NCBI GenBank assembly: GCA_963662175.1
Contig: OY759221.1
Coordinates: 32,176,045-32,240,044, forward strand
Length of the DNA: 64,000 nucleotides
Direction of reading: 5' to 3'
Source of the DNA: Aradus depressus
Lineage: Eukaryota > Arthropoda > Insecta > Hemiptera > Aradidae
Shown: in pieces, positions 2,051 through 63,714 of the stretch
Layout of the letters: each line of letters begins with the position of its first letter
Position numbering within the stretch: the stretch's first letter is position 1
Translations under genes and position numbers: made by a program
Notes under the pieces: generated by a model
Seen by the model: only the letters and a program-made list of their open reading frames with translations
Told to the model about the DNA's origin: nothing
Databases searched by the model: none

Positions 2051-2530
2051 GAGGGCGCCGCTAGCTCAGAAATAGATGCTAGCCTGTTGAGCTCAAGTTT
2101 GCGGGTTCGAAACCCGGCCAACGCCCTTCGGATTCTTATTTGGGAGGTAAACAAATCTCATAGCAATATATTACTTGGTGGTAGGCAGATGTAGTGAACT
2201 AACTTGTTAAAGTAATTAGATTTATCAGTCCAACATAATTTTTTATTTATACCACAACTAGTTTCGGCAATTTGCCATCTTCAGGTGGTGAATCTGAACA
2301 TACATAAACCAAAAATTAAACTAGAATTTACGAGCTTTTACAGTTCATGTCAATTATTAACCGATAAATAAATAAGTTAAAAATAAAATATAACAATTTA
2401 AAAATACGTAACAATTACCAAAATTACAATAAGTTACTATATTTGAATTAAAAAAGTACTCTCATAGCACGCCGTCCTTCGGATGGACGTTAAGCCATGG
2501 TCCCGGAGTCTACAGGATGTTACTGGGTTC
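2051..2530 (+). mobile_element. tRNA-derived SINE, split by an insertion
   Basis: The head (2051-2165) has tRNA-like pol III promoter boxes: an A box around TAGCTCAG and a B box GGGTTCGAAACCC. The SINE body resumes at 2460-2530 (CGCCGTCCTTCGGATGGACG and following). The two halves are separated by 294 bp flanked by a duplicated TCTCATAGCA, so a later element landed inside the SINE. The order matches other copies in the window: head, GGGAGGTAAA block, CCTTCGGATGG block. Confidence 0.85.
2166..2459 (-). mobile_element. Hammerhead-like small element, family 2
   Basis: A 294-bp insertion in the SINE with a perfect 10-bp target duplication TCTCATAGCA (2156-2165 and 2460-2469). On the minus strand it carries CTGAAGA, a short stem (GGC/GCC), then GAAAC at 2261-2284, followed by GTGGTATAAATAAA. 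The 3' part, with TTCACTACATCTGCC, resembles the tail of the insertion at 38524-38785. No coding capacity. The length of the target duplication suggests target-primed reverse transcription rather than a DNA transposon (inference). Confidence 0.7.
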
Positions 2531-2587
2531 ATGAGAAAGGGCACAATTCAAAATATAATAACTACCAATCTAATGAATTTATCATAT

Positions 2588-2818
2588 AAATAAAAGACGT
2601 TGTCTTCCCACTGTTTTATTTTCATCCCACCCACACAGCACAGCGGTTAAAGGACAACTGTGCACACAGCAGTGTGGGTGGGATGAACCACTGATGATGA
2701 GGCTGTTGTGTTGAAGAAAAGTAGTTCTGGTCAAAATAAAACAGAGGGAAAACAACGTCTTTAATTTATATGAGAAATCTCATCCCATAACAACATACTA
2801 TCACATATTTATTGACAA
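2588..2818 (+). mobile_element. Hammerhead-like foldback element, family 1 (degraded)
   Basis: An inverted repeat: AAAGACGTTGTCTTCCCACT near the left and its complement near 2740-2765, with a second inner palindrome (CACACAGC...). One degenerate core CTGATGATG...GAAGAAAA is at 2691-2720. It ends with the family-1 tail (GAGAAATCTCATCCC ... CTATCACATAT). No clean target duplication found. The left arm lacks the core seen in 7803-8086, probably by deletion. Confidence 0.6.
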
Positions 2819-2825
2819 AAACTTT

Positions 2826-3012
2826 GGTATGAAAATTTAGGAGCCCCTATGTAAGTCATCTGATGAATATTAGTGGAAACAGTCGACTGATTTTGGAGAG
2901 GGAGCGAAAAGGTAATTGATTAAATCGAGTTGGGAAAGTACATTTCTTGGTGATTCACTGACTTTTTTTATTGTATTTATTGCTTTCAAAGACTGGGGAA
3001 GTTGGTGAAAAA
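2826..3012 (+). repeat. Family E dispersed repeat fragment
   Basis: Contains landmarks seen many times in the window: GGAGCCCCTATG, a GTCGACTGATTTTGGAGAGG-like block, GAGCGAAAA, ATTGATTAA and GGGAAAGTACAT. Further pieces occur at about 3760-3860 (plus) and 4235-4330 (minus). Non-coding. Confidence 0.55.
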
Positions 3013-3038
3013 ATTAATTTCTTTATGAGTTATATATA

Positions 3039-3751
3039 CAGGGTGATTCCCTCGTAACTTTTTAAAAAAAGTTTGGATGAAACTAGACCAAAAATGGAGT
3101 AGAATGCTGCCAACCGCACCTTTCTATTTCAATCCGTTGCCGAGATATGATTTTTTAAAGTTTTTTTCGAGAAAACCACGTTTTTTGCCATCAAGTCCCA
3201 CATTTCTCCCCTTTAAATCAACTTTTCTCAACTTTTGACCATATTTTCAGAATTACCGTTCAATTTCCTATCAGACTAGTGTACTTTCAACTTTGAAAAT
3301 TACCAACTTAGAACCGAAATAGCAGCTAAAATGTTAAAATTTTAGAAAAATTAAAATTTTGGGAAACACTTCCACGTCAACTACTTTCCCGCTCAAGGGC
3401 CGCTTCAACCGTCCAGGGGGCTAGAAAACTTGCAAATTTATTCAGCTTTCTATTGGTATGGTCAACTGTGCGATTCCGTATCGATTTCATGGAGAAATTT
3501 AAGGTTGAATGCAAAAAAAATGTGATGTAAATCGAATCTAAAGAGGTCACAAATGCAAAATTTATTTTTATTTTTTAATCTAGAGAGAATAAGTGTGGCC
3601 AGTTCAGGTCTCGTGGTTTTCTCGAAAAAAACTTTAAAAAATCATATCTCGGCAACGGATTGAAATAGAAAGGTGCGGTTGGCAGCATTCTACTCCATTT
3701 TTGGTCTAGTTTCATCCAAATGTTTTTTAAAGTTACGAGGGAATCACCCTG
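3039..3751. mobile_element. Foldback MITE with ~145-bp terminal inverted repeats
   Basis: Starts CAGGGTGATTCCCTCGTAAC and ends with the complement. About 145 bp at each end (3039-3183 and 3608-3751) pair almost perfectly. TATA flanks both ends (3035-3038, 3752-3755), compatible with a TA or TATA target duplication. The 420-bp centre has no open frame. It is a non-autonomous DNA transposon; the superfamily is uncertain from TIR and TSD alone. Confidence 0.85.
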
Positions 3752-4379
3752 TATATTTAAAATTAAAATCTTATTAAGTCAACTATTGGTTTCTAGTCAT
3801 AATGGTTGATTGGTTTCAGAGAGAGAGCGAGATCATTGATTAATTAACTTGTTTAATACATTGGGTTCACTGACCACTTTGAAGAGCTGCATATTCCCCA
3901 TAGTAATGTATGTGATGCACCTTTCAGTATGAGATATATGAAGATATCGAGTGACTGTTGACTAAGTGTGATGACCCAGCCATGAACCTGTGTACACTAG
4001 TGACTAACTGCAGTGAGTACTACTCGGCTGACTGTTGTCATCAGGTAGTGAGGCACTGATGTTTGGTAAATTGAGACCTTCGTGATTAACACTTGACAAA
4101 CAGACGACAGATGGCAGTCCAGCTGCCCGTTCATCCTCCCGTCAGTCCTCTTCGACCTGATACCAATCAATAAGGTTCTCTAGTTTTGCAACTACGGAAG
4201 AGTGACTTCAAAAGAAAAAACTAAGAATTTTAATGTATGACTTGCAGGCGGGAGATCGACGGTGAATCACCGACTATGTGCTTCCCCAGCTCGAATTGAT
4301 CAATTAAGTATTCGCACCGTTTTGGTTAATAATGAATAATTGACTTACGGGACTTCCGAATCCTAACAAATTTTGAGTA

Positions 4380-6180: not shown

Positions 6181-6397
6181 GCTAAACACAAAACTGCAAT
6201 TGGTGTTTTGATTTTTACGTCCCTATACTAGTATATGTAGATATAAACTCTCATTTAGTGCATAAACTCTAATCTGCAGTCAACCCTTGAGTACTCGGCA
6301 TAACTAAATTGTATTTTTTTTTATTAACAAGGATGATAATAATAATGTTTAGGATAAAATAAAATAAAAAAATAATATAAGAAAAAATAAATAAAAC

Positions 6398-7362
6398 TAA
6401 TAGAAATAAAAGACGTTGTCTTCCCACTGTTTTATTTATACCAGAACCGGTTTTCGACGCAACAGCGTCATCATCAGTGGTTCATCTATCATAGAATAAC
6501 ATAAATATACAAATAATAAAAAGTATAAATAATTCCTAAAGCATCAGGGTACAGAGTAAAATTATATAAATTAACTTAACCCACCAAACAGCACAGCGGT
6601 TGGAAGATAACTGGCATAGCTCTAAGGGGTGGGGGTAGCCAGGTTCACTCACTCTCTCAACATGCAAAAACCATTCATTCTAATATCTACCATTCATTCT
6701 AATAAATACAATAAGTCTGTACATAATATAAAAATTGAGATTTCTTAACAAAAAAATAGAGGTTAAGAACTCCCTTCTGCTGCCTGACCTACCTGGTTTG
6801 AGAGATTGGTCCAAAACTAAGGGAAGTAGCTATCCTGTGAGAGATGTAGTGTAAATGGGTTTTAATGATATTTATTGTGTATTTTAATTCAAGTTTGTGA
6901 TATTTTTAACATTGTATTATTTATGTTTTTATTTTATGTTTATTTTATAAAAAAAAATTTGTATATATTTTATGACAACAATTATTTCTTTGGCTATATG
7001 ATGGACAATTTTTATATTATGTACAGACTTAATGTATTTATTAGAATGAATGGTTTTTGCATGTTGAGAGAGTGAGTGAACCTGGCTACCCCCACCCCTT
7101 AGAGCTATGCCAGTTATCTTCCAACAGCTGTGCTGTTTGGTGGGTTAAGTTAATTTATATAATTTTACTCTGTACCCTGATGCTTTAGGAATTATTTATA
7201 CTTTTTATTATTTGTATATTTTTGTTATTCTATGATAGATGAACCACTGATGATGACGCTGTTGCGTCGAAAACCGGTTCTGGTATAAATAAAACAGTGG
7301 GAAGACAACGTCTTTTATTTCTATTAGAAATCTAGTCCCACAACATCTTACTATCACATATG
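6398..7362 (+). mobile_element. Hairpin-shaped hammerhead-like element, family 1 (965 bp)
   Basis: Two ~320-340-bp arms (about 6398-6742 and 7003-7326) are reverse complements, separated by a ~260-bp loop. Each arm has one core, CTGATGA-T-GACGC/GCGTC-GAAAA, at 6452-6477 (minus) and 7247-7273 (plus). The right end carries an extra tail (AGAAATCTAGTCCC ... CATATG) absent from the left. A perfect 12-bp target duplication AATAAATAAAAC lies at 6386-6397 and 7363-7374. Small open frames in the loop are low-complexity. Confidence 0.8.
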
Positions 7363-7559
7363 AATAAATAAAACATTTATAATTAATAAAAAAAGAAATA
7401 TTAGAAAATAAATAAATATAAATTATATAATAGAAGAAGAAGAAGAAGAGTTTATTATAACAGTGGCATTTACAGAGGTACAATTATACAATAAGGTTCC
7501 TTACCCGTATACACTAAATACAAGTCAAAAATAATCAGTTAAATTAAAAGCAATGTTAC

Positions 7560-7802
7560 TTAAGAGTGAATTTTGAAAACTCTTAAAGAGAAAAGAAAAA
7601 CAAAAAAATATATATATATATATAAAGTTACTAAAATTAATAGAAAATAAATGAATAAACATTCAAAACTGAAATTTATTATGTAGTCCAGTAGGAGATC
7701 AACATTTAGGTATTCATGGATTTGGAGGATGGAGGTGTCCCTCGAGTAGCTATCAACCAATCTAAGGCATTTGTATTGGCCAACTTGAAGAGTTCTCAAG
7801 TT
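7560..7802 (-). pseudogene. LINE reverse transcriptase C-terminal fragment (Jockey-like)
   Basis: The minus-strand translation includes LQVGQYKCLRLVDSYSRDTS, ILQIHEYLNVDLLLDYIIN, the region after the RT domain in Jockey/CR1-type LINEs. The fragment at 35652-36011 is a close relative (LQVSQNKCLRLVGSYSRDTT). The hairpin element at 7803 interrupts it; the LINE-derived sequence resumes at 8087. Confidence 0.7.
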
Positions 7803-8086
7803 CATATGTGATAGTAAGATGTTGTGGGACGAGATTTCTAATAGAAATAAAAGACGTTGTCTTCCCACTGTTTTATTTTATACCAGAACCGGTTTTCGAC
7901 GCAACAGCGTCATCATCAGTGGTTCATCCACCCACACAGCACAGCGGTTGGAAGATAACTGGCCCAGTTATCTTCCAACCGCTGTGCTGTGTGGGTGGAT
8001 GAACCACTGATGATGACGCTGTTGCGTCGAAAACCGGTTCTGGTATAAAATAAAACAGTGGGAAGACAACGTCTTTTATTTCTATT
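7803..8086 (-). mobile_element. Palindromic hammerhead-like element, family 1 (284 bp)
   Basis: A near-perfect 251-bp palindrome (7838-8088, centre 7963) makes up most of this insertion. It holds two facing cores at 7894-7919 (minus) and 8007-8032 (plus). The asymmetric tail CATATGTGATAGTAAGATG... at 7803-7837 is the complement of the tail at 7327-7362. A perfect 12-bp target duplication AGTTCTCAAGTT is at 7791-7802 and 8087-8098. The last two palindrome bases overlap that duplication. Open frames spanning the palindrome are by-products. Confidence 0.85.
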
Positions 8087-8440
8087 AGTTCTCAAGTTAG
8101 TATTGCATAATGAGATAATAATAATCGTGTTAAGTGAGTGTTTTTGTGATACTACACTTGAGACAGAGTATTGGACAGTTGACAACAAGATGTGGTGAGG
8201 TAGTCGGTGTTCAGATGGCTGACCCACTCGGTAGAAGACAGCTCCAGGAACGAGCGGGAAAAGAGCTTTGTACTTGTTGATGAAGTCCTCTATAGCCTCC
8301 ATGTGGAGGTTACGGTGTATCTGAGAGTTGCGGAGGAACCAGGAAGCAGCCACAGCCATCCGGAACACCTTGTTTTGGAAGGTCTGGAGACGCAGTATAT
8401 TGGAGGAATTAACTCCACCCCACCACACTACATCACGAGG
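8087..8440 (-). pseudogene. LINE reverse transcriptase C-terminal fragment
   Basis: Minus-strand translation reads SSNILRLQTFQNKVFRMAVA ... RNSQIHRNLHMEAIEDFINK, the LQ-FQNK-R and NSQIHRDL pattern common after the RT domain of Jockey-type LINEs. No RT catalytic motifs remain. It is continuous with 7560-7802 apart from the hairpin insertion. Confidence 0.7.
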
Positions 8441-13265: not shown

Positions 13266-13269
13266 AAAA

Positions 13270-15682: not shown

Positions 15683-16890
15683 TTATAGCAATAATTTTGT
15701 AAAGAAGCAAGATACGGACGCGCAATGCCCCTGAAGAGGAATGGGGCCACCACACAACACAGTCATGAAGGCGAGCAGGAAGCCAGAAGGCGAGCAGGAC
15801 GCCAGAAGACAACACAGCAGAGGAGCGGAGGCACCGAACCGGCCGCGACCCACCAGGGTCCCAAACCCGTCGAGCACACAACCCCGAAATACAAAACCAT
15901 CACTTTCCAACTTGGGTAACATAACTCCATTCAGGTTTTGAGGGAACTTAATCCCGCGCCAGTGACCATCACTCATACACTGATTCAAGTTTTGAGGGAA
16001 CTTAATCCCGCGCCAGTGACCATCTCTCATACACTGATTCAGGTTTTGAGGGAACTTAATCCCGCGCCAGTGACCATCACTCATACCGTTGTTACCAATA
16101 CAGTACACCGTTCTCCATGTGTGCCCGACCGACCCGAAACCCCGAGAAGCCCCAGCCGATGCCGGCACCCCAACCCACCCACCGCGCAGCCAACCGGCGC
16201 ACGGTAGAGCGAAGGGCGGCAAAAACATATAAATAGCTAGTGACATATGAATATATACGAAGTTCAGACCCTGCGGCCAGCATAATTTAAAAAAAACTAA
16301 CAGCGCCTCTCTGACAAGAGGGCTGTTGCAAGCAGATAAAATAGCCAGGTATGTTCGAGGAGCTGCAACTGTTCTCTCTAGGTTCTCCATAAGGAGATCT
16401 CTTTCTGCACTGTAATGTGGACACTGCATCACTATATGCTCCAGATCCTCGTAGCCCCCGCAGTGGCGGCAGCTAGAACTCTCACTCAGACCAATCCTAT
16501 TCAGGTAGGCACTGCACAGTCCGTGGTTGCTTCTTAAACGGCATATGGTCTTACACTCAAATTTAGATGTTGCTTTGTCTCTAAACCACGGTCTGGTTCC
16601 TACATGGGGTTGAATCGACTTAAAGAAATTGCCTTTGCGAGAGGCCTGGTACCTGTCCTGCCACATTGTCAGAACGGAGGTCAGGATACCCTCCTTCAGA
16701 TCGCTAGCCGGGATGTTGCCTATAGGCTCCCCCCTCTCCACCGCCAGTTTTGCCAATCCGTCCACCCTCTCGTTCCCTTTAATTCCCGCGTGAGCTTTCA
16801 CCCACATTAACACAACTTTTTTCTTTTGGCCAATAACCACGGCATAGTTTTCTAGTATGTCGGCTATTATGTTATCATATTGTTTGTGCA
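15683..16890 (-). CDS. LINE ORF2 C-terminal part: RNase H end, zinc region and repeat-bearing tail (frameshifted)
   Basis: Continues ORF2 in another frame. Its first residues complete RNase H1 (VKAHAGIKGNERVDGLAK has the expected H and final D). A cysteine/histidine segment, SCRHCGGYEDLEHIVMQC, follows near residues 135-155, as in the C-terminal region of I-type LINEs. Further on, an 18-residue unit (core DGHWRGIKFPQNLN) repeats about three times because the frame crosses a 54-bp tandem repeat. The natural stop is therefore unusually late, and the last ~170 residues may not be conserved protein. The frame overlaps the upstream one by 24 bases. A single base indel, or a sequencing error, could explain the break. 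Confidence 0.8.
15935..16086. repeat. 54-bp tandem repeat in LINE 3' region (~2.8 copies)
   Basis: Units start at 15935, 15989 and 16043 with GTTTTGAGGGAACTTAATCC; a few substitutions separate them. The 54-bp period keeps the reading frame open (18 codons per unit). Confidence 0.9.
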
Positions 16891-19800
16891 ACAGGAATTT
16901 AACTTAGTTAGGGCACTCAATGAATCTGTAACTAAAAGAAAGTGTTCACTATCGAGTAGGGAGACATACTTCAAAGCTGCTTCATTTATTGCTACTAATT
17001 CAGCAGTGTAACTAGAAGCAAATTTCGGAAGTTTGAAACTCCGACTGAAATTTTTGTCGTCATCAAGAAAGGCGCAACCTGTACCATTCGTCGTTTTTGA
17101 TCCGTCTGTAAATATTGGTACATATGACGACCACCATTTCCTTTTGATCCCTTGGAACACCGCATTAACCATGGAAGGAGGGACACCAGAGAGATCCGGT
17201 AAGTATGTTATATTAATGTGATGAAGAAGATTACGAAAATTAATATTGAAATTTGGTAGAATGTGAGAACTGTATACGAAAGGGGCAAACTTAGCGTATT
17301 CCGGGAAACTATCAAGCAAAAGAGGATAATAATTCTTTCTAACCCAGTAAGATGAGGTGAGGTTAAGTACAGTTAGTTGCCGAACTTTGCTATAGACAGG
17401 ACTATCGGAGGCCAGTAACTTGCAGAGGTACCTGCCAGCCAACATTCTCCTTCTAAGGTCTAGCGGCATCTCCCCCGCCTCACACAGTACCACATCTACA
17501 GGTGTGCTGTTCAGGAAGCCCAGTGCCAGACGCAGACATTTGTTGTGAAGGACATCCAGCCCATGTAGACTGGTCTTGGCCGCTTCACCATAGAACACTG
17601 AGCCGTAGTCCACAACTGCCCTAATTACGTTTCTATAAAATAGTAATGCAATATTAGGATCTGCCCCCCAATTTCTGTTTGTTATTAGTCTAAGGATATT
17701 AATATATTTTTCTACTTTCTGGATTATGGAGGAGATATGGCTGTTCCAGTTTAACTTCCGGTCTAGAACCAAGCCTAAGAATTTAACCTTGGCCACGCAA
17801 GGGAAGACCAATCCCCCTAAAGCTAAATTCTCCCCGAGTGGGAACCTATGTTGTCGCGAGAAAGGACAAACGGCAGATTTTGACTGAGAGATGCTGAGAC
17901 CATTGTCGACCAGCCACGGGAGCAGCGATGTTACGGCCTGGTTCAAGCCTGCCTTGCAAGAATCCACGGTCTTGTGTTGGGTATACAGGCAGATATCATC
18001 TGCATACTGCAATATACTTATGTTGCGAGGAATACATCGACACAAATCCAAGGAGTAGATAACGAATAGAAGGGGAGAGAGAATTCCCCCCTGCGCCAAA
18101 CCCAGATTTGTAACCCTGGAACTATGCAGTGAGCTGTTTATCCATAGATGAAGGCGTCTATTCGAGAGTAAGTTAATGATCCTGTGAGTAAAACTGGCTG
18201 GCAAGTCCAAATTTAGCATCTTGTTCGCTAGAACAGGAAGTTGAACAGAGTCATAGGCCCCTGTGAGATCCAGGAACAGTCCCAATGTCTGATGACGATT
18301 AGTAAACCCAGTGTGGATATCTAAGGTGAGGGATGCTAAACTGTCATAAGTGGACCTGCCCTTCCGAAACCCGAACTGGTAAGATGGGATCTTGTCCTGC
18401 GACTCCAGCCACCACTCAAGCCTGTTCTTCACCATTCTTTCGAAGGTCTTCAACATGCAAGATGACAGGGCTATCGGTCTGTATGAAGCTCCATCACTGT
18501 GCGATCTACCCGGTTTTAGCAATGGGATAACCAAATAATCCTTCCAATCCTCCGGGAAGACCCCAGAAAGCCAGATCTCATTAAATGCCTTCAACAGGTG
18601 GAGTTTGGTTGTGACCAGCAAATTCCTGATCATGTCATAATGGATCCCGTCCATCCCTGGAGCCGTATTCTTACTGTTGGATTTGATCGCCATGTTCAGT
18701 TCGGCCAGTTCGAACCTGTCTGTTAGGAAGTGTCTCTCTGATATCCTGTCCATTGCTCCCACCCATGCCGGAACGAAGGGAGGGGCCAAACGTTCCATGA
18801 AGTCCACACACCACTCTCCCGTCTCTAAAGGGGGCTTATTACTTTTCTTCCTGTTTGATAGTTTTTTTATTTTGTCCCAAATTTCTTTTACAGGCGTACA
18901 TCTGTTCAAACTACCACAAAATTCGCGCCAACTATTAATTTTACTTTCTTTTACCGCCTTCTTAAATTCCGCATCCGCTCGTTTATATTTCATGAGATTC
19001 CCCAAATCCGAATTCTTTTTATAATTATTGAAGTTGGCTTTCCTTTTGTTTAACAAATCGCTGAGGTTTTCATTCCACCAGGGACGATTAAATTTGGGAT
19101 TTATATATTTTCTAAATTTCGGGATTGCTTCTGCAGCTGCTTCATTTATAACGTTAATGCAATGGTCATACCCTTCATTTAGATTACTGTCTGAACTCCT
19201 GAATTTATCATTCATGGAATAACTAAATTTTTCCCAATCAGCTTTTCTAATGTTCCACCTTCGAAAGGGTGTGACGAGGATTTTGTTAATAGAAATATTA
19301 TTTAAAGTGATTACAATGGGGAGGTGGTTAGAGCCGTGAGGGTCAGACAATGTCTCCCAATCCACTTTACTGGCCAAACCTGAAGAACAAAAAGTGACAT
19401 CCACCGCCGAGTTGCATTTCTGGGCAACGTTATTAACATAAGTAGGGCTGCCATCATTAACAACTATCATATTGCTGTTTTCAACAGCCGCTAAAAGATT
19501 TTTGCCCTTCTTGTCACATCTATCGCAACCCCAAGAATAGTGGTGAGAATTGAAATCACCTCCAACCAAGGTAGGTTTTGGAATGCCTCGCAACAACCGG
19601 TCCCAGTCTGCCTCTGCCACTTGGTTGTTGGGCTCATTGTAAATAGAGATGATACTGATGGCAGAATTGGAGACTAACCTAATCTCCGCTCCTACCATCA
19701 GCACATTCCTTACCTTGTAAAAATTGGTGATCTGGGTGTAGGGGATGCTACTCCTAATGAGGAGCGCTACCCCGGACCTGGCGTCTGCCCTGTCCTCTCT

Positions 19801-19965
19801 CAGCACATTGTACCCCGGGAACCCGACATACACTCCTGGCCTGAACCACGTCTCAGACACAAGGGCCACGTCGATACCGTGCTTGTGCAACATCCACTCC
19901 AAACTGGCTTTGTTGGCTACAGCAGAACGAGCGTTCCATTGAAGGAGCTTAAGAGTTCTGTCCAT
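16867..19965 (-). CDS. LINE ORF2: endonuclease-reverse transcriptase-RNase H (N-terminal 1032 residues)
   Basis: This enzyme nicks the target and copies LINE RNA into it. An APE-type endonuclease spans about residues 5-220: LLQWNARS (8-14), LVSETW (35-40), GGDFNSHH (135-142) and SDPHGSNHLPI (207-217). The reverse transcriptase spans about 430-720: NTAPGMDGI (433-441), FLDLTGAYDSV (564-574), GLAQGGILSPLLF (622-634) and the catalytic YADD (654-657). RNase H begins at FTDGSKT (953) with E near 988 and D near 1013, then the frame is lost at residue ~1024 and resumes in the next entry. The start follows about 275 bp after ORF1. All motifs needed for nicking and polymerisation are present; only RNase H is split. 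Confidence 0.93.
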   Translation of the reverse strand: MDRTLKLLQWNARSAVANKASLEWMLHKHGIDVALVSETWFRPGVYVGFPGYNVLREDRADARSGVALLIRSSIPYTQITNFYKVRNVLMVGAEIRLVSNSAISIISIYNEPNNQVAEADWDRLLRGIPKPTLVGGDFNSHHYSWGCDRCDKKGKNLLAAVENSNMIVVNDGSPTYVNNVAQKCNSAVDVTFCSSGLASKVDWETLSDPHGSNHLPIVITLNNISINKILVTPFRRWNIRKADWEKFSYSMNDKFRSSDSNLNEGYDHCINVINEAAAEAIPKFRKYINPKFNRPWWNENLSDLLNKRKANFNNYKKNSDLGNLMKYKRADAEFKKAVKESKINSWREFCGSLNRCTPVKEIWDKIKKLSNRKKSNKPPLETGEWCVDFMERLAPPFVPAWVGAMDRISERHFLTDRFELAELNMAIKSNSKNTAPGMDGIHYDMIRNLLVTTKLHLLKAFNEIWLSGVFPEDWKDYLVIPLLKPGRSHSDGASYRPIALSSCMLKTFERMVKNRLEWWLESQDKIPSYQFGFRKGRSTYDSLASLTLDIHTGFTNRHQTLGLFLDLTGAYDSVQLPVLANKMLNLDLPASFTHRIINLLSNRRLHLWINSSLHSSRVTNLGLAQGGILSPLLFVIYSLDLCRCIPRNISILQYADDICLYTQHKTVDSCKAGLNQAVTSLLPWLVDNGLSISQSKSAVCPFSRQHRFPLGENLALGGLVFPCVAKVKFLGLVLDRKLNWNSHISSIIQKVEKYINILRLITNRNWGADPNIALLFYRNVIRAVVDYGSVFYGEAAKTSLHGLDVLHNKCLRLALGFLNSTPVDVVLCEAGEMPLDLRRRMLAGRYLCKLLASDSPVYSKVRQLTVLNLTSSYWVRKNYYPLLLDSFPEYAKFAPFVYSSHILPNFNINFRNLLHHINITYLPDLSGVPPSMVNAVFQGIKRKWWSSYVPIFTDGSKTTNGTGCAFLDDDKNFSRSFKLPKFASSYTAELVAINEAALKYVSLLDSEHFLLVTDSLSALTKLNSCCTNNMIT

Positions 19966-20240
19966 AATAAATATTTAATTTTTTATTAAATCGCCCAACT
20001 GGACTGAGAAGAGAACAGACTAAATATGGAAGTATGCAAAGAATGGGAATTCTATTAAATAGTATGTAAATGGATTTGTATGTAAGTACACCCAAAAAGG
20101 CGCACGTAAACACGAGAACCAGAGGGAATTCACAACTAAAACCATAAACGCAGGAAATTGAATTATTATTTACAAATAAGAAAAGAGGCTTCAGTGAATT
20201 GAGCATTCCTTGAAACGATTTTGGAAATGAACTCATTAAA

Positions 20241-21659
20241 TTAATTGGATACGGACCTATCATCATTTACTTTAAATTTTTCCACATTTTCTGAACCGTC
20301 GCTTACCAAATTGTGCAGGGTCATTGCCAGCAACTCAACGATCTGGTCCTTGGACAGTGAGGAGTTCTGGATCTTACTAATTAGGTTAGACAGAGATTCC
20401 ACGAACCTCTCCATGAAGGAGGCCGCCTGAGGGTTGGACTCGATCGGCTGGAGAGGTAAGGAAGGGGTCGAAAGGACAGGCCACTGCGAGCCTTTAGGTG
20501 CAGCGTAAGGGGAAAATCGTCTCACTTTAATTTTAGTTTTTTTGCTAAGCATATTAACAGTATTATTTTTGTTTTCGGGGGAACTATTTGAATTACTGTC
20601 CAAGACAGGAAATTCCGACATATTTTCTAATAGGTTAAATTTATTTTTAGTAACGGTCGAATAGAGGGTTGTGGAAATAACAGACTGTTTTTTCTTTTCG
20701 AGGTTTGCGACATAGACGGGACACTCCCGATAGGTGGCCTTATGGGGACCTTTGCAATGGACACAGACGGGGAGGGTGAAGGTACATTCGGAGGAGGCAT
20801 GCTTGTCCCCACAGATCTCGCATCGCACAGAGCCTCGGCACTGCGCCTTGACATGACCAAAGTTCAGACATGAGTAACACTGAAGAAGGGGGGGCACGTA
20901 GGGGGCCACCGGACACCTAGCTCCGTAGATATAAACGTATTCTGGCAGTCTTTGGCTGTCGAATGTTAGAACGCATGTACCTAGTTTAATGCGCTGAGAC
21001 GGATCCTCTTTCTTGCCTCTTGTCATTCGTTTAATTTCCACTATTTTTGATGGGGATTTCACAACCTGCAAAATTTCATCATCATCCAAGGAAGTGTCCA
21101 CCCCGCGAATGACACCCCTCTTATTAATTAAATGGCGCGGAATGAACGCATATGCATGTTTTTCCTTCAAAAATTCCCACGTTATAAAACTATTAGCGGC
21201 CACAGATGAACTGAAGGTTACACGGAACCTATTTTTCCCTGCCACCGCTATATTTGAGATGTCTTTCACATATTTAAAGTTATTGGAGAACATCCACTTT
21301 CCAAAACCCATCGGGTGAATGGAACCTAGAGTTCCCTGCAAACCTTCCACATAAACACAGAAAGGACCAACATCAGTGTCCTTAAACTTACCTGATTGTA
21401 ATTTAGATATTTTATTGGCAACCTGTAATTGGTCCGCTGCGCTGCTGGAAGACTCGACCACTCGCTGGCTCACGAGAACCTTGGCCGAGCCCCTGTGGAT
21501 ATCCTCTGCGGCCTGCCTCTTGCCCCCCGCCTTGGGAGCTACCGGGCCCGGGCTCAAGTCCATCCCTGCTCCTCCTGCTGCCTCCTGCTCCATTAATGGA
21601 CCATCGTCCACTTCACCACTACTCCCCGGGGGCTCCTCACCCCCGCTTGAAGCGTTCAT
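20241..21659 (-). CDS. LINE ORF1: nucleic-acid-binding protein with zinc knuckles
   Basis: A 472-residue intact frame. The N-terminus (1-60) is G/P/E-rich and looks disordered. Residues ~100-245 have the length and spacing of an RRM-like fold often found in ORF1 (inference). Three CCHC-type knuckles lie at ~261-316: CYSCLNFGHVKAQC, CEICGDKHASSEC and CVHCKGPHKATYREC. In this class ORF1 coats the LINE RNA and forms the ribonucleoprotein used for insertion. The C-terminal part (~390-472) has alternating leucines that could form a helix. Start chosen at the first ATG, MNASSGGEE. Confidence 0.9.
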   Translation of the reverse strand: MNASSGGEEPPGSSGEVDDGPLMEQEAAGGAGMDLSPGPVAPKAGGKRQAAEDIHRGSAKVLVSQRVVESSSSAADQLQVANKISKLQSGKFKDTDVGPFCVYVEGLQGTLGSIHPMGFGKWMFSNNFKYVKDISNIAVAGKNRFRVTFSSSVAANSFITWEFLKEKHAYAFIPRHLINKRGVIRGVDTSLDDDEILQVVKSPSKIVEIKRMTRGKKEDPSQRIKLGTCVLTFDSQRLPEYVYIYGARCPVAPYVPPLLQCYSCLNFGHVKAQCRGSVRCEICGDKHASSECTFTLPVCVHCKGPHKATYRECPVYVANLEKKKQSVISTTLYSTVTKNKFNLLENMSEFPVLDSNSNSSPENKNNTVNMLSKKTKIKVRRFSPYAAPKGSQWPVLSTPSLPLQPIESNPQAASFMERFVESLSNLISKIQNSSLSKDQIVELLAMTLHNLVSDGSENVEKFKVNDDRSVSN

Positions 21660-21830
21660 CCCTAACTCACTAAATAATACTTACGAAAAAGTTGAAGATT
21701 TAAAGGAAATTAATGATAAGAATAAATGATTTTAAAGGAATGAAGATATAAGAACACAAACTAACGAAAGAACCAACTGAACTCCAAATTTAAATTGAAC
21801 TAGTAAAATATTTGAAAATTATTTAGAATG

Positions 21831-25124: not shown

Positions 25125-25452
25125 ATTAGAATGAATGGTTTTGCATGTAGAGAGAGTGAGTGAACCTAGCTATCCCCACGCCTTAGAGCTCTGCCAGTTG
25201 TATTTTAACCGCTGTGCTGTGTGAGTGGGTTAAGTTAATTTTATAATTTTTATCTTCTTACTCTGTACTGTGATGCTTTAAGAGTTATTTGTACTTTTCA
25301 GTATTTGTATATTTTGTTATTCTATGATAGATGAACCACTGATGATGACGCTGTTGCATCGAAAACCGGTTCTGGTCTAAAATAAAACAGTGGGAAGACA
25401 ACATCTTTTATTTCTATGAGAAATCTTGTCCCAAATTTTACTATCACATATG
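25125..25452 (+). mobile_element. Hammerhead-like element, family 1, single arm
   Basis: Matches one arm of 6398-7362: AATGAATGGTTTTGCATG, GAGTGAGTGAACCT, then the core CTGATGATGACGC...GAAAA at 25339-25364, AATAAAACAGTGGGAAGAC and the tail ending CTATCACATATG. Downstream of the core, CTGGTC fits a hammerhead NUH site (GUC). No inverted partner, so it is a truncated or monomeric copy. A piece of the family's central loop lies at 25886-26040. Confidence 0.7.
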
Positions 25453-25885
25453 AACATTATTAAAACACATAAGTTATTTTTATAAGACATTATTAAAACG
25501 CTCTAATATAACACGTCATCGTTATAAGACACTGTAATATAAGAATGGGGAAAAGGCCCAGTGTTTGGCAGCCTGCTTTAAACGAACAGCTCTTGTCAAT
25601 TAGTATCTGCTGAGTATTGCATTTCCCGTTGTTGTTTATCTCTTGCCAGGGTTTGTTACTTACCTCTATTGAAGGCTAGCTGCAAGCCTCGCTCCGCATC
25701 ATCGTCTATAAGTGGTTCCTGTCCATATGGCCTAAGACCTTGTCTCAAGGGCTCCTTCCTCTCAATGTTCCATATCTTATAAACATTCATTCACTCAATG
25801 CATGTATCCATTATCTTAGATATGTTCTAAAGCTTTTTCAAAATGTCATCCCTCATAACTTCAAAAGTTAAATTAATAAAGCACA

Positions 25886-27050: not shown

Positions 27051-27350
27051 TTCGAATGAATGTTTTTTGTATGTAGATAATGTGAGTGAACTTTCCTATA
27101 CCCACCACTTTGAGCTATGCCAGTATTTCTTTAGCCTCTATACTGTACGGGTGGGATAAGCTAATTTTTTATTTTATTATTTTTATTTTGTTACTCTGCA
27201 CTGCTCCAAGATTTTGCTAGTTACCTTTCATTATTTATATTTTATATGTATTCATTCATAGATGTGCCACTGATGATGCTGTTATGTTGGAAACTGGTAC
27301 TGGTCGCAAATAAAACGTTGGGAAGACAACGTCTTTTATTTATATATATT
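27051..27350 (+). mobile_element. Hammerhead-like element, family 1, diverged single arm
   Basis: GAATGAATGTTTTTTGTATG ... GAGCTATGCCAG ... core CTGATGATG...GGAAAC at 27270-27293, then CTGGTC and AATAAAACGTTGGGAAGAC. Here the sequence after the core (GAAAC, short loop, GTC) fits a hammerhead short stem III and cleavage triplet. Confidence 0.65.
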
Positions 27351-32036: not shown

Positions 32037-32055
32037 AATATACATTAACTATCGG

Positions 32056-32078
32056 TTTCGGCATTACAGCATCGTCAG
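32056..32078 (-). repeat. Hammerhead-like motif, family 6
   Basis: On the minus strand CTGACGATGCTGTAATGCCG then AAACC: the CTGANGA and GAAA boxes with a short GC-rich stem. It sits just right of the family E terminus. Confidence 0.45.
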
Positions 32079-34431: not shown

Positions 34432-35197
34432 ATAATGGAAAAAAAACACTATTCAAATGCCAACGTTTCGATATATTTTATATCATCATCAGGGCCTACA
34501 AACATGGGGGGAAATCAAGATTAGAATCAAAAATAAACAAAAATTTTTTTTGTTGATAAACATTACTGAACGTTAAAAATACATTATAACAAGTTAAAAA
34601 TTGAAACTGACTTACTAAGAATAATTACTAAACATTAAAATTAAATATGAATACATTACCTACTAAACATAAACATTAATAATGGAAATAGACAAATAGG
34701 TGGAACATAATAAAGAGTAAACATTAAAATGACTTACTATGAATAAGCAGGGTTGGGGAGAAGACATGTACATTGGATGGAGTCTTACATTGCAATGAAA
34801 TGGTACAATAATACAGGGGTGCTGAAGGCACCAGGTACATGGAGCTCGGAAAACCCCGTCATAACTGTCACATTACAGCAGAAATGTTGAAAGTAATATA
34901 AATATGTATTATTAAGGTTGTTGGTGTCTGTATACTCTAACACATACATATAGATAATTAATAAATAATAAAAAAAAATATATAATACACAAAAAAAAAT
35001 ATATAATACACAAAAAAAAATAAATAAAAAAAAAAATAAAAAATAGATAATATAGATATTGGAGACAGAACTATGATGTCAGCTCTTGCTAAGTAAATTG
35101 GCATAACAATTACTTAGGTTATTAGTGTTTTTTTCCATCAGGAAAAAGTTTTTTTTTTTTCCATCTTTGACTGACCCTCAATATTCCTACAATTAGA
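34432..35197 (-). mobile_element. Hammerhead-like element, family 4, long copy
   Basis: Read on the minus strand: TTGTAGGAATATTGAGGGTC ... at 35197, a ~600-bp AT-rich interior, then CCCATGTTTGTAGGCC and the core CTGATGA-T-GATATA/TATATC-GAAAC at 34466-34492. The 3' side has lost its inverted-repeat arm at an (AAT)n run (34410-34436). The copy at 63452 keeps that arm. Interior is non-coding. Confidence 0.6.
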
Positions 35198-38149: not shown

Positions 38150-38890
38150 CGTATAGGCGACGTTATGTAATCGGACAGATATTCGAAATTGAGTTTACAA
38201 CGAAATTTCATTTTTCCGAACTCCTGATTCCAAAAAGGAAAACAATAATTCTGTGTGTATTTGTGCGTGTGAACTCGAAAGAATGAATAGATCGACAGGA
38301 ACACAAATATTCTAATAGCTGCCGTTGTAATGAATATATAGACACAAAATTTCATAAGTAAATTCAAAAGCACATAAGAACAAACAAAATATTTTTTTGC
38401 GGAATCGGCCAAAGGGGAGGATCATAGGAGAGAGCTCAACTAAAAAACACTAATAACTGCCGATATAATGATTGTTTCGACACAAAATTTAGTATGAGGA
38501 TTCAGAAGACCAAACGATCTACTTAATATGAAGATGGCTGATGTAGTGAGAAGTGATTATTTCACAGGATGTCAAATATAAGATAGTCTGACCTCTCACA
38601 GATTTTTATTGGTAGTAATAGCTAGCCGGCTTTCGAGGTTTCCCTCATCATCAGGCAGTCTACAAAAGAACCATCCTTAAAATAATATGTAATATAAATA
38701 GCAAAGGTAAATAATTAAATTGAAAACACAATTTTTGATTAAACATACCTGATAAAAAATTAAAAATTATATTTGACATCCTGTAAAACGATCTACTGGT
38801 TTATAGAGAGGGAGAGAGAAATCTGAATTGATTAATTCGTGCTGTGGAAGTAGGTACATTCAATTCGTGAATATCGGCACTAAGTGGACT
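38150..38890 (+). repeat. Family E dispersed repeat, split by a hammerhead-like element
   Basis: Pieces 38150-38523 and 38798-38890 join into one copy across the insertion at 38524-38785. Subunit block GCCGTTGTAATGAATATATA near 38322. Confidence 0.65.
38524..38785 (-). mobile_element. Hammerhead-like element, family 3
   Basis: 262-bp insertion in family E with a perfect 12-bp target duplication AAACGATCTACT (38512-38523 and 38786-38797). On the minus strand it starts TACAGGATGTCAAATATA, has the core CTGATGA-T-GAGG(GAAA)CCTC-GAAA at 38631-38654, repeats the start inverted (TATATTTGACATCCTGT, 17 of 17), and ends with a ~40-nt tail containing CTTCTCACTACATCAGCC. Non-coding. Confidence 0.8.
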
Positions 38891-40668: not shown

Positions 40669-40829
40669 TTAGGCTCTAAGCAGTACGGGTGGAATGCACC
40701 CTTGATGATGACGCTGTTGCATCGAAAACCCTTTCTGGTCAAAAAAAAAACAGTGGGAAGACAAACGTCTTTTGTTTCTATGAAAAATCTCGTCACACAT
40801 TAAGTTAGTTAGTAAACCATCACATATGG
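40669..40829 (+). mobile_element. Hammerhead-like element, family 1, 3' part
   Basis: Core with first base changed (TTGATGATGACGC...GAAAA, 40702-40727), AACAGTGGGAAGAC, and a tail ending ATCACATATG. The tandem array starts exactly at this terminus. Confidence 0.65.
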
Positions 40830-41581
40830 ACTATAGTTTTAATGGTTTTCGCAACACGGTAGGATGTACCGCAGTCTGCCGCCATATCCGATTGTGCAAC
40901 TCTTGGCTAGATCCGGTGCTCTGGTATTGTTCCCTTATCCCCCCTATCACATATGGACTATAGTTTTAATGGTTTTCGCAACACGGTAGGATGTACCGCA
41001 GTCTGCCGCCATATCCGATTGTGCAACTCTTGGCTAGATCCGGTGCTCTGGTATTGTTCCCTTATCCCCCCTATCACATATGGACTATAGTTTTAATGGT
41101 TTTCGCAACACGGTAGGATGTACCGCAGTCTGCCGACATATCCGATTGTGCAACTCTTGGCTAGATCCGGTGCTCTGGTATTGTTCCCTTATCCCCCCTA
41201 TCACATATGGACTATAGTTTTAATGGTTTTCGCAACACGGTAGGATGTACCGCAGTCTGCCGCCATATCCGATTGTGCAACTCTTGGCTAGATCCGGTGC
41301 TCTGGTATTGTTCCCTTATCCCCCCTATCACATATGGACTATAGTTTTAATGGTTTTCGCAACACGGTAGGATGTACCGCAGTCTGCCGCCATATCCGAT
41401 TGTGCAACTCTTGGCTAGATCCGGTGCTCTGGTATTGTTCCCTTATCCCCCCTATCACATATGGACTATAGTTTTAATGGTTTTCGCAACACGGTAGGAT
41501 GTACCGCAGTCTGCCGCCATATCCGATTGTGCAACTCTTGGCTAGATCCGGTGCTCTGGTATTGTTCCCTTATCCCCCCTA
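40820..41581. repeat. Six tandem 127-bp repeats
   Basis: Units start at 40820, 40947, 41074, 41201, 41328 and 41455, period 127. They look almost identical; one clear difference is CCGACATATCC for CCGCCATATCC in the third. Each unit begins with TCACATATGGACTATAG and ends TTATCCCCCCTA. Homogeneity implies recent expansion. No coding. Confidence 0.95.
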
Positions 41582-49656: not shown

Positions 49657-50377
49657 TGTAACATGTAGAAATAAGGGGGGGTATTTTAATAAATAAAGAA
49701 ATATAATAAAGCCATTAACGGGATGTCAGTACTGAGGACTTAAGAAGGGTGGGGGAAGAGAGAGAGAACAGTGGAAGGAGGGGGAAACGAGTGTGTCGGT
49801 GGTTGGAGATAGAGAGTGAAGGAGGAAGGTTGTGGTTGGAGATAGAGAGTGAAGGAGGAAGGTTGTGGTTGGAGATAGAGAGTGAAGGAGGAAGGTTGTG
49901 GTTGGAGATAGAGAGAGTGGAAGTGGACGGTTCGTTTTTTTTGAGAGAGTTCGCTGGAGTAGTGAAGAGTTTTTGTTTGGAGTTAGAAGTCTGGAGGAAG
50001 TCAGGAAAAAAGGCAGATTGATGGAAAAATAAAGGAAGGATCGGAGAGCCGTATGATGAACTAAGAAGAGCAGTGGAGAAGGATTGAAGGACAGGTGGTG
50101 ACCAAGTGAGTGAAAAAAAAAATAATTATAAAAAAATAAAACAAATAAATGTTATATGATCATGTCTCCAATTTATGTAAAGATTTAAAAAAACAAAACA
50201 AAAAAAAAAAAAACTCTATTTAATAAATTTTTTTTATTAAAAGAATTCATTTCCCATAACTAGTTTTTTCAACAAAATAATAAGAAATAAAGAGGAACTA
50301 GTAACTGTTTCATTGGCGCCCAACGTGGGGCAATTTTAAAAAGGAATAAATTTAATGAGAACATAGTAACTGTTTCA
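49657..50377 (+). repeat. 5' LTR of non-autonomous LTR retrotransposon (721 bp)
   Basis: Begins TGTAACATGTAGAAATAAGG and ends AACTGTTTCA (TG...CA). Matches 53021-53774 throughout. It has three full 33-bp units (GTTGGAGATAGAGAGTGAAG) where the 3' LTR has four, exactly explaining the 33-bp length difference. A primer-binding-site copy (50313-50331) lies inside it, as also in the 3' LTR. Tandem AATAAA signals are near 49690. The open frame at 49749-50021 is a product of the 33-bp repeat. Confidence 0.88.
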
Positions 50378-53020: not shown

Positions 53021-53774
53021 TGTAACATGTAGAAATAAGGGGGGGTATTTTAATAAATAAAGAAATATAATAAAGCCATTAACGGGATGTCAGTACTGAG
53101 GACTTAAGAAGGGTGGGGGAAGAGAGAGAGAACAGTGGAAGGAGGGGGAAACGAGTGTGTCGGTGGTTGGAGATAGAGAGTGAAGGAGGAAGGTTGTGGT
53201 TGGAGATAGAGAGTGAAGGAGGAAGGTTGTGGTTGGAGATAGAGAGTGAAGGAGGAAGGTTGTGGTTGGAGATAGAGAGTGAAGGAGGAAGGTTGTGGTT
53301 GAAGAGAGAGAGAGTGGAAGTGGACGGTTCGTTTTTTTTGAGAGAGTTCGCTGGAGTAGTGAAGAGTTTTTGTTTGGAGTTAGAAGTCTGGAGGAAGTCA
53401 GGAAAAAAGGCAGATTGATGGAAAAATAAAGGAAGGATCGGAGAGCCGTATGATGAACTAAGAAGAGCAGTGGAGAAGGATTGAAGGACAGATGGTGACC
53501 AAGTGAGTGAAAAAAAAAATAATTATAAAAAAATAAAACAAATAAATGTTATATGATCATGTCTCCAATTTATGTAAAGATTTAAAAAAACAAAACAAAA
53601 AAAAAAAAAACTCTATTTATCAAATTTTTTTTATTAAAAGAATTCATTTCCCATAACTAGTTTTTTCAACAAAATAATAAGAAATAAAGAGGAACTAGTA
53701 ACTGTTTCATTGGCGCCCAACGTGGGGCAATTTTAAAAAGGAATAAATTTAATGAGAACATAGTAACTGTTTCA
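53021..53774 (+). repeat. 3' LTR (754 bp)
   Basis: Matches the 5' LTR, with four full 33-bp units and a variant partial fifth. It ends AACTGTTTCA after an internal primer-site copy at 53710-53728. Preceded by the polypurine tract. Confidence 0.88.
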
Positions 53775-59304: not shown

Positions 59305-59306
59305 CC

Positions 59307-59735: not shown

Positions 59736-59852
59736 GTTTTTTGTAACCTCTCAGGTAAAAAAAACTAGGGGCCTCAGCCGGGTTTCGAACCAGTGATCTT
59801 GAACTCAGTAAGCAAGCACGCTACCACTGAGCTACCGGCGCCCTCCCGAAAA
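59690..59852 (-). mobile_element. tRNA-derived SINE, 5' part
   Basis: Minus strand GAGGGCGCCGGTAGCTCAG, B box GGTTCGAAACCC and CCTTCGGATGGGACG. The 3' side merges into the foldback at 59307-59735. Confidence 0.85.
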
Positions 59853-61110: not shown

Positions 61111-61129
61111 TGGAGAAGAAAAAAAAGCA

Positions 61130-61530
61130 TGCATGGCAACCAGTTTAGAAAGGACAGCCTGGAGAACTGGAAGATGAAAAGTGTCCAAACTATCCTACCT
61201 TCTACGGCAGTTTGAGCAGAGACGTGGACTACATCAGGACAGTGCTGCTAATGCAGACTGTTCAGAGCTAGTGGAGAGATGATAGGGCTGAACATAAGGC
61301 CCGGAAGAGTGGACCCTGAGGCCCAGATCTGTTCCCTATATAGCCTTGGGGTTCTGGAGGACATGGTCCACTTCCTGGGGGTCTGTCCTGTCCTGGCAGA
61401 GTGGAAGCAAGGCCAGCCTCTCTCTGGAGGAGACCATCCAGATACTCAATGGCAAGGATTGCCACTCACTATATCAGTTCGTACGGGATGCTACCAAAAA
61501 TAGAAAATTTCATGAATAACAATTTAATTA
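61130..61530 (+). pseudogene. LINE C-terminal fragment
   Basis: Plus frames give ASWRTGRWKVSKLSYLLRQF and, from 61279, MIGLNIRPGRVDPEAQICSL then LEDMVHFLGVCPVLAEWKQG, with the C...H...CP zinc motif (ICSL, VHFLGVCP) of non-LTR C-termini. Same family as 9095-9330. A frame change follows, ending in FVRDATKNRKFHE in another frame. Confidence 0.65.
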
Positions 61531-63055
61531 CTAGGTGTGCAATGCATTCTGCTGTTTGCAAAAACTGAGCTGAGTCAGTCTAAATTTATTGAATCATACT
61601 GTTAATGTGGTCGGTTAACATACAAGCAGTGCATTTGAAATGGGGCATATGAACCGCTTTGTGATCACTGGATGGAACCGTATTGCACAAAATTCTTTTT
61701 ACTATGTGTTCTTTGTATAGAAGAATATTTTTATCGAAAAAAAGTTGAAGTTTGTACGTTAGAACACTGAAAAAAACTGCTCAAAAAAAGTGGTGTTCGA
61801 TGGTAAATCGAAAAGGGCTTAGCCCGGATTTTTACATTTGAAATAGAAAAATTCTATTTTGCGCGATAATTTTGTCTCTCAATTGATTTCAATGGGGATT
61901 TCGTTTTTCGGTGATTATTCCTCCGTGGTATGTTCGATTTCAGATTTTTTTAGTCGTCACCGTGTCCACTACCATCGTGGCAAATTTCAATGTGATCGGT
62001 AAAGGGGTATAGGAGGAGTACGAGTACAACGAAATACATGAGTCGCCTAAGAAAGAGCTTCGTAAACTCAGCTCAATTAAATAATATCTTTTAAAAAGCC
62101 CTTTACAGTTACATCAATGTTGTTCTTAGGTTTTCTTCTCTTTCTCCTGCATGCGAAAGATGTTTTCACATATATTTTTTTTTCTTGTTTATTACTTCAT
62201 TTTATTACAATTGTTATTGCTATTTATATTTGCTCCTTATCTGTCTTATTTTATTTTATTTATTATATATCTTTTTCATACAATTGTGCATGAATTTAAT
62301 ATTATTATTTATATTTTAAAATTTAAAGAATTTTCCGAAGACACTCTCTTCTCAAAGACGTGGCCATTGTCAGTACATTTGTATACTAGATACTAGAATA
62401 TGTTAAGTCCATGTGTAAACAAAGTATTCATTCATTACATAAGTACAGAGGCAGAACTTTGAACTTACCAGTTCTATATCTATTGGTAAGATATTTTCTC
62501 TCTATAGATATAAGCTAAGAGTACCTTTATAAAAATATCTATGGAGGTCTACCTTTTTGACAGGATTTAGGGTAGGCGGGATCTGTCGACCTCAATATCC
62601 TCTCGCCAACATCTCGCTTCTCTGGCGACCTCAACCACATCGAACAACAAGAACAAAATTATATACATGCTTGTAGTTATTTTTTGTTTTTATAATTTAC
62701 TTACAATTTATTGAATTCATTTTTAAATTTTAACTAGGCTAAAAGTGTTGACTTTTCGTAATCAGGTCAACCAAATATACATACTTTATTTTACTTATTT
62801 ATTATAGGTTAAGCAAGCCAAGTTTTTTTTTTTGTCTTGCAAGACTTATTCTTAGCCAGCGTCATACTATATTAATTTGATTTATTTTCGCTCTACGCCC
62901 AAAAGGAACCGTTGCATATAGCTGGGAAAATTCTGGGAAGTTCAGTGTCAATCGGTTACTAAAAATTTAACTTTTTTTTTTGCAGAAAAAAACATTTAAT
63001 AAAAAATAAAGAAAAACGAACTCTCTAAAAAAAATATTGTCTATTTCACAAAATA
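61531..63055. other. Unassigned stretch
   Basis: No gene or known repeat recognised; AT-rich with several T runs. Confidence 0.3.
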
Positions 63056-63057
63056 TC

Positions 63058-63084
63058 TTTAGCCTATTTCTACACCATCTTCAG
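63058..63084 (-). repeat. Hammerhead-like motif (degraded)
   Basis: Minus strand CTGAAGATGGTGTAGAAATA then GGCTAAAG; the final box has lost its G. It lies just outside the foldback at 63089-63714. Confidence 0.35.
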
Positions 63085-63088
63085 CCAC

Positions 63089-63714
63089 GACATTACAAAT
63101 ATTAAGTAGAAATTCAACATGTTTACATTCCGAACTGTCCCTTTATCAGCCTTACTATTGGGTTTTTTTCTCCTGTCCCTTTTTTCTGTAAGGTCTTAAA
63201 AACGTTAAAAATAAAATTTCGCCTCAAATTGAAAGCTTAATGATAAAGGAAAATTTGAAATTGTATCAGTACTGATTAAAATACAAGTATATATGTTTAT
63301 ATAAAATAAATCAAAGATAATTTTTTTTGCAGATTATCATCTTTGATTTATTTCATATAACATATACATTTGTATTTTAATCAGTACTGATACTATTTCA
63401 AATTTTCCTTTATTATTAAGTTATAAATTTGAGACGAAATTTTATTTTTAATCTAGATCCCCCCCCCCCCCCCCCCCCCCCCCCCCCATGTTTGTAGGCC
63501 CTGATGATATAAAATATATCGAAACGTTGGCGTTTGAATAGCGTTGCCTGTTCTCTTCCATCTTTGACTGACCCTCAATATTCCTACAATTTATTTTTAA
63601 TGTTTTGGAGACTTTACAGGAGAAAGGAACAGGGAAGAAAAGAACCCAATAGTAAGGCTGATAAAGGGACAATTCGGAATGTAAACATGTTGAACTTCTA
63701 CTTAATATTTGTCA
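63089..63714. repeat. Large foldback (arms ~235 bp) interrupted by a hammerhead-like element
   Basis: The left arm 63089-63325 is complementary to 63333-63451 plus 63601-63714. Shared words include ATCAGTACTGATTAAAATAC, AAGGAAAATTTGAAAT and TTTACATTCCGAACTGTCCC. The right arm is split by the 138-bp insertion at 63452. Confidence 0.88.
63452..63589 (+). mobile_element. Hammerhead-like element, family 4, short copy
   Basis: 138-bp insertion with a perfect 11-bp duplication TTTATTTTTAA (63441-63451, 63590-63600). It has a C run, CATGTTTGTAGGCC, the core CTGATGA-T-GATATA/TATATC-GAAAC at 63501-63524, then TTCCATCTTTGACTGACCCT ... CTACAA, the complement of the 5' end of the long copy at 34432-35197. 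Confidence 0.8.

Follow-up and report, generated by a model that had tools for sequence, protein, structure and literature searches.

How do short insertions with inverted ends, a hammerhead-like core and, in some copies, an extra 3' tail arise between target site duplications (TSDs)? The question is raised by a stretch of 64,000 nucleotides from Aradus depressus (contig OY759221.1, positions 32,176,045 to 32,240,044; G000:C7:32176045-32240044 in a genome of 697,738,979 bases and 74 contigs), referred to below as the window, which holds four families of such inserts, A to D. We consider it likely that the inserts are by-products of endonuclease (EN)-containing Penelope-like elements (PLEs), in which two copies of a transcript leader were primed at two nicks. 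The original prediction, made from the letters of the window, had described them as non-autonomous retroinsertions with a hammerhead-like core and an optional 3' tail of 35 to 40 nt, a description that the genome copies and TSDs bear out. It had also held that the design was undescribed as a class, which is no longer tenable, as inverted pseudo-long terminal repeats (pLTRs), one-sided tails, TSDs and hammerheads are known from the available parts of PMC3846280 and PMC11167929. The novelty lies in how the inserts form, not in the class of element.

Families A, C and D and their Penelope-like partners

Many of the short inserts of families A and D run from CCAGTT to either of two fixed 3' positions close to the start of an open reading frame (ORF) and, as judged from sequence, represent the 5' leader of a PLE transcript, which carries the hammerhead-like core and lies directly upstream of the ORF. 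Genome searches with DNA and protein queries scored the best candidates only, making their counts lower bounds; pattern counts cover the whole genome. The original prediction had suggested collecting genome copies and an autonomous partner sharing the tail, and both were found. The family A tail junction gave 712 exact genome matches (0 for the reversed control), and family C gave at least 41 matches (best 40 of 1,666 candidates scored), 40 of these 41 at 98 to 100% identity. A frame of 824 residues with reverse transcriptase (RT) and GIY-YIG motifs at locus L034 is flanked by two family A leaders, with a third leader inverted, and lies within a 12-bp TSD (AAGTACACCGCC). At this locus the tail extends up to an ATG of the frame. 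An inverted RT fragment adjoins some other family A copies. Thus, pLTR-like leaders occur in direct and inverted orientation with an optional tail, as seen at L034 and in the 44 paired A inserts described below.

The PLE protein P0001 matched RVT_1 with an E value of 3.2e-10, with RT preceding GIY-YIG in one ORF, and had 25 homologues at E<=1e-20, some of them from insects (Phthorimaea, Diabrotica, and Culex). Comparison of P0001 with solved structures returned a single chance-like match (E 0.94). A protein search of the genome gave at least 56 matches (best 55 of 7,274 candidates scored). Among the matches listed, six open family A frames span query residues 1 to 821 or more at 98 to 100% identity, many others are shorter, and a second PLE family shares 41 to 44% identity with the query. 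The family D core is present in the flanks of three members of this second family, and the D tail was found beside the ORF start in L068 and at the 3' ends of L069 and L071, not of L072. For family C, a leader at L095 adjoins a GIY-YIG fragment in head-to-head orientation, and L094 is a palindrome with a tail at one end only and a 12-bp duplication (by eye). On this evidence, families A, C and D consist of leaders of EN-containing PLEs, and this genome also contains their ORF-bearing partners.

Two arrangements of PLE-related sequence were also seen. At G000:C1:87026226-87041132, family A PLE frames form a head-to-head tandem array with a minus-strand unit spacing of 2,969 bp, and at 7485-9998 of L031 a tandem repeat of the unit GRKISTRIGEH, which resembles part of the PLE GIY-YIG domain, adjoins a family A insert.

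Probable splicing of the leaders and 5' ends of the arms

Short inserts of family A correspond to the long leader minus 93 bp, a stretch starting with GTAAGT and ending with GATAG. At the exon end the short arms carry GGTGG (36 arms), GGTGGG (21 arms) or one further variant (once), and unspliced counterparts exist for both main alleles (10 with GGTGG and 1 with GGTGGG); thus, a single genomic deletion is insufficient on its own to explain the short form. In family D the candidate intron is 75 bp, CAG/GTATGT...TTTTGTAG/ACTGCC. The spliced joint was predicted as TATCAGACTGCCTGATGATGAGG and then found 1,552 times genome-wide (788+764), with 0 matches to the reversed control. The Penelope element of Drosophila virilis likewise has an intron.

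The 5' ends of the A arms lay at d=126 in 28 of 88 cases and at d=122-126 in 39 of 88, and those of the D arms at d=222-229 in 12 of 26. The frequent stops of both families read CCAGTT, which we take to resemble the insect initiator motif, and spliced A arms extend past the d=126 region in one insert only, L007/L008 (132, 134). As an exact GT-AG stretch is absent and the arms often stop at CCAGTT, the simplest template for the short A and D inserts is a sense mRNA that had been spliced and was copied as far as its 5' end. No description of spliced PLE leader palindromes was recognised in literature searches limited to open-licence PMC papers.

The short forms could instead be self-propagating, non-autonomous families similar to short interspersed elements, with masters in which the intron deletion is fixed and which borrow the PLE protein. 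Their high copy number would suit this explanation, as would the haplotypes common to several D inserts and the five A inserts that share both their spliced arms and a 126/126 centre (L002, L005, L013, L041, and L048, the last with one base different). We nevertheless regard it as unlikely: two exon-end alleles each have an unspliced counterpart, exact GT-AG loss would have occurred in two unrelated leaders, the D inserts match two different ORF-bearing haplotypes (L069/L072-like and L070/L071-like), and most centres differ. Furthermore, the short inserts end at an RT start site and would lack the downstream stretch that PAc, a PLE of Anolis carolinensis, needs according to the available part of PMC11167929.

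One tail per insert

The sampled inserts consist mostly of two head-to-head leader copies between duplications that are mostly 12 to 13 bp. In families A and D, one arm ends at the distal (tail) site and the other at the proximal site. All 44 head-to-head A inserts, 41 on contig C1 and three in the window, have a tail at one end and a tail-less other end. From the 51 family A regions fetched, a scripted pair was obtained in 41 and none in 10; 21 of the C1 inserts were fetched by a tail-blind query and the other 20 by a tail word, which is biased against pairs with no tail at either end, not against pairs with two. The 10 regions set aside comprise two single arms (L019 and L023, with TSDs of 14 and 8 bp), a short tail-less arm (L024), three carrying an inverted arm that the script missed (L052, L056, and L058) and four in which no second arm or convincing TSD was seen (L042, L043, L047, and L066).

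For family D, 20 loci were examined and one tail was found in 17 of the 18 that could be read. Thirteen of the 20 were paired by the script and all were one-tailed, two of the scripted ends that match 8 and 11 letters past the proximal site being counted as tail-less; by eye, L081, L083, L088 (its tail interrupted by a gap) and L090 were also one-tailed. The same arrangement was seen by eye in the D insert of the window and in the family B insert B1. Because the tail of PAc is the stretch between two RT start sites, the two ends of an insert look like the use of one start per site.

Source variants shared by the two arms, variable centres and target duplications

To whichever variant an A insert belongs at the exon-end diagnostic site, its two arms agree: 25 of 25 spliced pairs were concordant (8 with the variant and 17 without; 0 of 20,000 permutations), and at a second site the arms agreed in 24 of 25 (p 0.0086). 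Both arms were spliced in 25 pairs and both unspliced in nine (34/34 informative), with 10 pairs uninformative and no mixed insert. Over 13 D inserts the paired arms differed at 22 sites in total, whereas different inserts differed from one another at a mean of 7.2 sites (0 of 20,000 permutations).

In contrast to the arms, the centres vary, with overlaps of up to 6 nt or filler of 1 to tens of nt in family A. The tail-less arm is the longer in 19 A pairs and the tailed arm in 17, with eight equal. As the centre of the inverted repeat differs among most inserts, the inversion was most likely formed at insertion, and the earlier idea of a hairpin element that moves as such is not supported. TSDs of 10 to 16 bp, 74% A+T, surround 37 of the 44 A inserts (0 of 1,892 mismatched flank pairs), and TSDs of 12 to 15 bp surround all 13 D pairs.

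Inverted ends and target duplications are also features of miniature inverted-repeat transposable elements (MITEs). A DNA transposon origin is extremely improbable here, as the ends are unequal, with a one-sided tail, arm lengths and centres vary, and the sequence is the leader of a retroelement with an RT partner. The A inserts do not have both ends and the centre in common, as copies of a MITE would.

A stronger, although still improbable, rival is self-priming fold-back, in which a single cDNA on an antisense template copies itself into the second arm, as proposed for Penelope in the available part of PMC3846280. It would account for palindromes at the inverted joint and for identical source variants in both arms. 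However, an antisense template would not splice at GT-AG, in all 44 inserts the copied arm would need to terminate precisely at the proximal start site, and direct target duplications surround 37 of 44. The A and D inserts thus argue against antisense self-priming for these copies.

Proposed route of insertion

In the twin-nick reading that we favor, the PLE protein, while bound to the mRNA that encodes it, would cut both target strands about 12 bp apart, and each target 3' end would prime reverse transcription on the same mRNA leader, one per start site. Both cDNAs would extend toward the 5' end of the RNA before being joined at their 3' ends through short homology or filler. The template may be a single RNA molecule or a pair from one source. 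A narrower version, in which one and the same spliced mRNA molecule serves twice per insertion and the enzyme's two subunits, each acting on one target strand, are forced to start at different sites, leaving exactly one tail per double-ended insert, is judged slightly less likely than not. Leader-only inserts would be dead on arrival, as they would be without an ORF and, by analogy with PAc, without the protein-binding stretch. To yield ORF-bearing copies, the transcript would have to be a tandem one in which another leader follows the ORF.

Several points weigh against this route or the counts behind it. The 25/25 concordance includes L018, in which a neighboring placement was counted as the same variant, and L064 is discordant at one A site. 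The arms of the unspliced insert L051 share 10 sites and differ at 24 (other unspliced pairs mostly agree), and those of L074, in family D, differ at 16 of the 22 sites noted above; perhaps both discordances reflect the old age of these copies. A set of 17 D loci was chosen for a spliced joint in both arms, so that family D is silent on splicing concordance. L078, also in family D, lacks a visible tail and has one arm shortened, and L073 and L075 could not be assigned and stand outside the 17/18 count. PAc in vitro used its start sites alike on both strands, so that something more is required to explain why each insert has one tail. Lastly, the GIY-YIG match of P0001 (E 0.033, 14.9 bits) lies below the Pfam cut-off of 22.6, although three scanned relatives exceed both the RT and GIY-YIG cut-offs.

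The closest described systems share parts of this picture. In Adineta vaga, the available part of PMC3846280 describes Penelope pLTRs in both direct and inverted orientation, one of the inverted ones with a 31-bp tail, together with TSDs of 8 to 10 bp, proposes self-priming on an antisense template and leaves the template strand open. Direct and inverted pLTRs, a one-sided optional tail, TSDs and palindromes at inverted joints are common to that element and the present ones; tail codons at the ORF start and solo pLTRs are also mentioned there. That account covers few copies, whereas hundreds of spliced, leader-only, head-to-head copies occur here, with one tail in every sampled paired A insert. 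For PAc (Poseidon) of A. carolinensis, the accessible text of PMC11167929 reports a protein that in vitro cuts and extends both strands, starting inside its own RNA, with start sites that do not differ between the strands; the tail lies between two internal RT start sites and a hammerhead sits beside the ORF start, and later integration steps are described there as yet to be validated. Two start sites bounding a tail, a hammerhead-like core by the ORF start and AT-rich targets are found here too. That work is an in vitro enzyme study, and a joined head-to-head product, splicing and a one-tail rule were not encountered in the accessible text.

Hammerhead-like cores

The original prediction had placed cores of the form CTGANGA-stem-GAAA in four families, and these exceed chance. 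CTGANGA-N(5-30)-GAAAC has eight matches in the window against 0.72 expected, with eight or more in 0 of 100 shuffles. A stricter descriptor (stem I, CTGANGA, an optional 1 nt, stem II, GAAA plus a self-complementary stem III, a non-G, and the stem I partner) gave six strict and seven lax matches in families A, B, C and D and none in 200 dinucleotide shuffles. All seven lax matches carry one extra nt before stem II, and the core near 63501 in insert B2 fails the descriptor. A chance origin of the cores or the duplications was ruled out by the shuffles (0/100 and 0/200) and the mismatched flanks (0/1,892).

The self-complementary stem III sequences are AACCGGTT (A), ACGT (B), ACTAGT (C) and AGCCGGCT (D), and the plan of the core fits a minimal-hammerhead geometry that may be able to pair with a second copy. 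The proposed check with covariance models was negative: a scan of the window at E<=5 and one of 7960-8130 at E<=10 both gave no match to Rfam hammerhead models. On dimer folding, the expected stem III duplex was formed by D only, with A, B and C folding otherwise, so that sequence, and not folding energy, underlies the dimer idea. Folded as single strands, five core regions gave z values of -1.59 to 0.36. A further core, CTGACGATG...GCCGAAACCG, lies at 32055-32078 of the window and occurs in both orientations in L070 beside a family D leader, possibly representing a fifth family.

The hammerhead geometry would also suit retrozyme-like units made from circular RNA through hammerhead cleavage, and in L065 one arm starts at the predicted cleavage site and the other one base before it (d=48, 49). 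The remaining A pairs start elsewhere, mostly at d=122-126, many arms cross the predicted cleavage site, and the 44 paired A inserts are head-to-head and not tandem monomers bounded by cleavage sites; we judge this origin very unlikely. Metazoan retrozymes, as described in the available part of PMC7229834, are non-autonomous with type I hammerheads, and PLEs are suggested there as helpers. They are tandem repeats with small circular RNAs, whereas the present inserts are head-to-head copies of what is probably a linear mRNA leader. L065 itself looks as if a cleaved RNA had served as template. A pattern meant for 5' ends at the cleavage site matched an unrelated repeat at 36,759 places; TTTATTTTACCTCCCAGATAAAATAAA and variants dominate these (first listed at G000:C1:888944-888970), and it is probably an abundant short repeat.

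Inserts and other features of the window

Family A insert A1 (6397-7362) has long unspliced arms head-to-head, a tail-less left end and a 35-nt tail at the right; its 12-bp TSD, AATAAATAAAAC, lies at 6386-6397 and 7363-7374, and descriptor-matching cores lie in the left arm (6440-6481, minus strand) and the right arm (7243-7284, plus strand). Insert A2 (7803-8088) consists of head-to-head spliced leader arms, with the tail at the left (7803-7837) and a tail-less right end, a 12-bp TSD (AGTTCTCAAGTT; 7791-7802 and 8087-8098) and descriptor-matching cores at 7882-7923 (left arm, minus strand) and 8003-8044 (right arm, plus strand). Its centre gave weak Rfam mir-497 matches under the gathering score. 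An older insert, A0 (2581-2809), absent from the original prediction, is tail-less at the left and tailed at the right, with a flank match of 6 bp only. Diverged family A sequences on the plus strand comprise an unspliced leader with an altered tail (25139-25463), a leader end with an altered tail (40693-40829) and a tail-less leader end (27258-27348). At 40693-41581, a diverged family A end passes directly into a tandem array of six copies of 127 bp.

The family C insert (2166-2459, minus strand) is one arm with a tail, a 10-bp TSD (TCTCATAGCA; 2156-2165 and 2460-2469) and a descriptor-matching core at 2251-2289 (minus strand). The family D insert (38524-38785, minus strand) has a long unspliced arm and the tail at its left end and an inverted tail-less arm of about 18 nt at its right end; its 12-bp TSD (AAACGATCTACT; 38512-38523 and 38786-38797) was read by eye, and its core (38621-38656, minus strand), with a 2-bp stem I, matches the lax descriptor only. 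Family B insert B1 (34434-35193) is tail-less at the left and tailed at the right, with a descriptor-matching core at 34459-34495 (minus strand); comparison of its flanks for a target duplication found none. Insert B2 (63453-63589, plus strand), which has a tail and the core that fails the descriptor, is bounded by a 12-bp TSD (TTTATTTTTAAT; 63441-63452 and 63590-63601). Its 29-nt poly-C run sits near the left end; B1 has no such run.

The five TSDs first reported, of 12, 12, 10, 12 and 11 bp, are all real, with that of B2 corrected from 11 to 12 bp. An inverted repeat around the core had been claimed for three families; in the window it is clear in A, clear in D over only about 18 nt, and weak and A-rich in B1. 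Family C has no inverted ends within the window, its head-to-head copy (L094) lying elsewhere in the genome.

Among other features, near-identical direct repeats at 49657-50098 and 53021-53495, with copies of TTGGCGCCCAACGTGGGGC beginning near 50295, just past the first, have the look of a long terminal repeat element. Minus-strand frames of 406, 1035 and 479 residues at 15683-21680, with endonuclease/RT-like and zinc-knuckle-like motifs, belong by appearance to a non-LTR retrotransposon.

Implications for Penelope-like elements

In the available part of PMC3846280, neither the strand of the template nor self-priming is regarded as settled, and the inserts bear on how PLEs copy themselves. As natural, near-identical products they discriminate between models, pointing to a spliced sense template, priming of both target strands, one start per site and the same source RNA. 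They also suggest a reason for PLE tandem arrays, in that the ORF would be copied only given a downstream leader, and a route by which introns may persist, as splicing of that leader is not required. In annotation, copies of this kind may otherwise be taken for MITEs, fold-back elements or microRNA hairpins. If the narrower, single-molecule version of the route is true, the hairpin-like elements found in PLE-rich genomes would represent unsuccessful cycles, with the enzyme having copied the leader of the very mRNA that encodes it.

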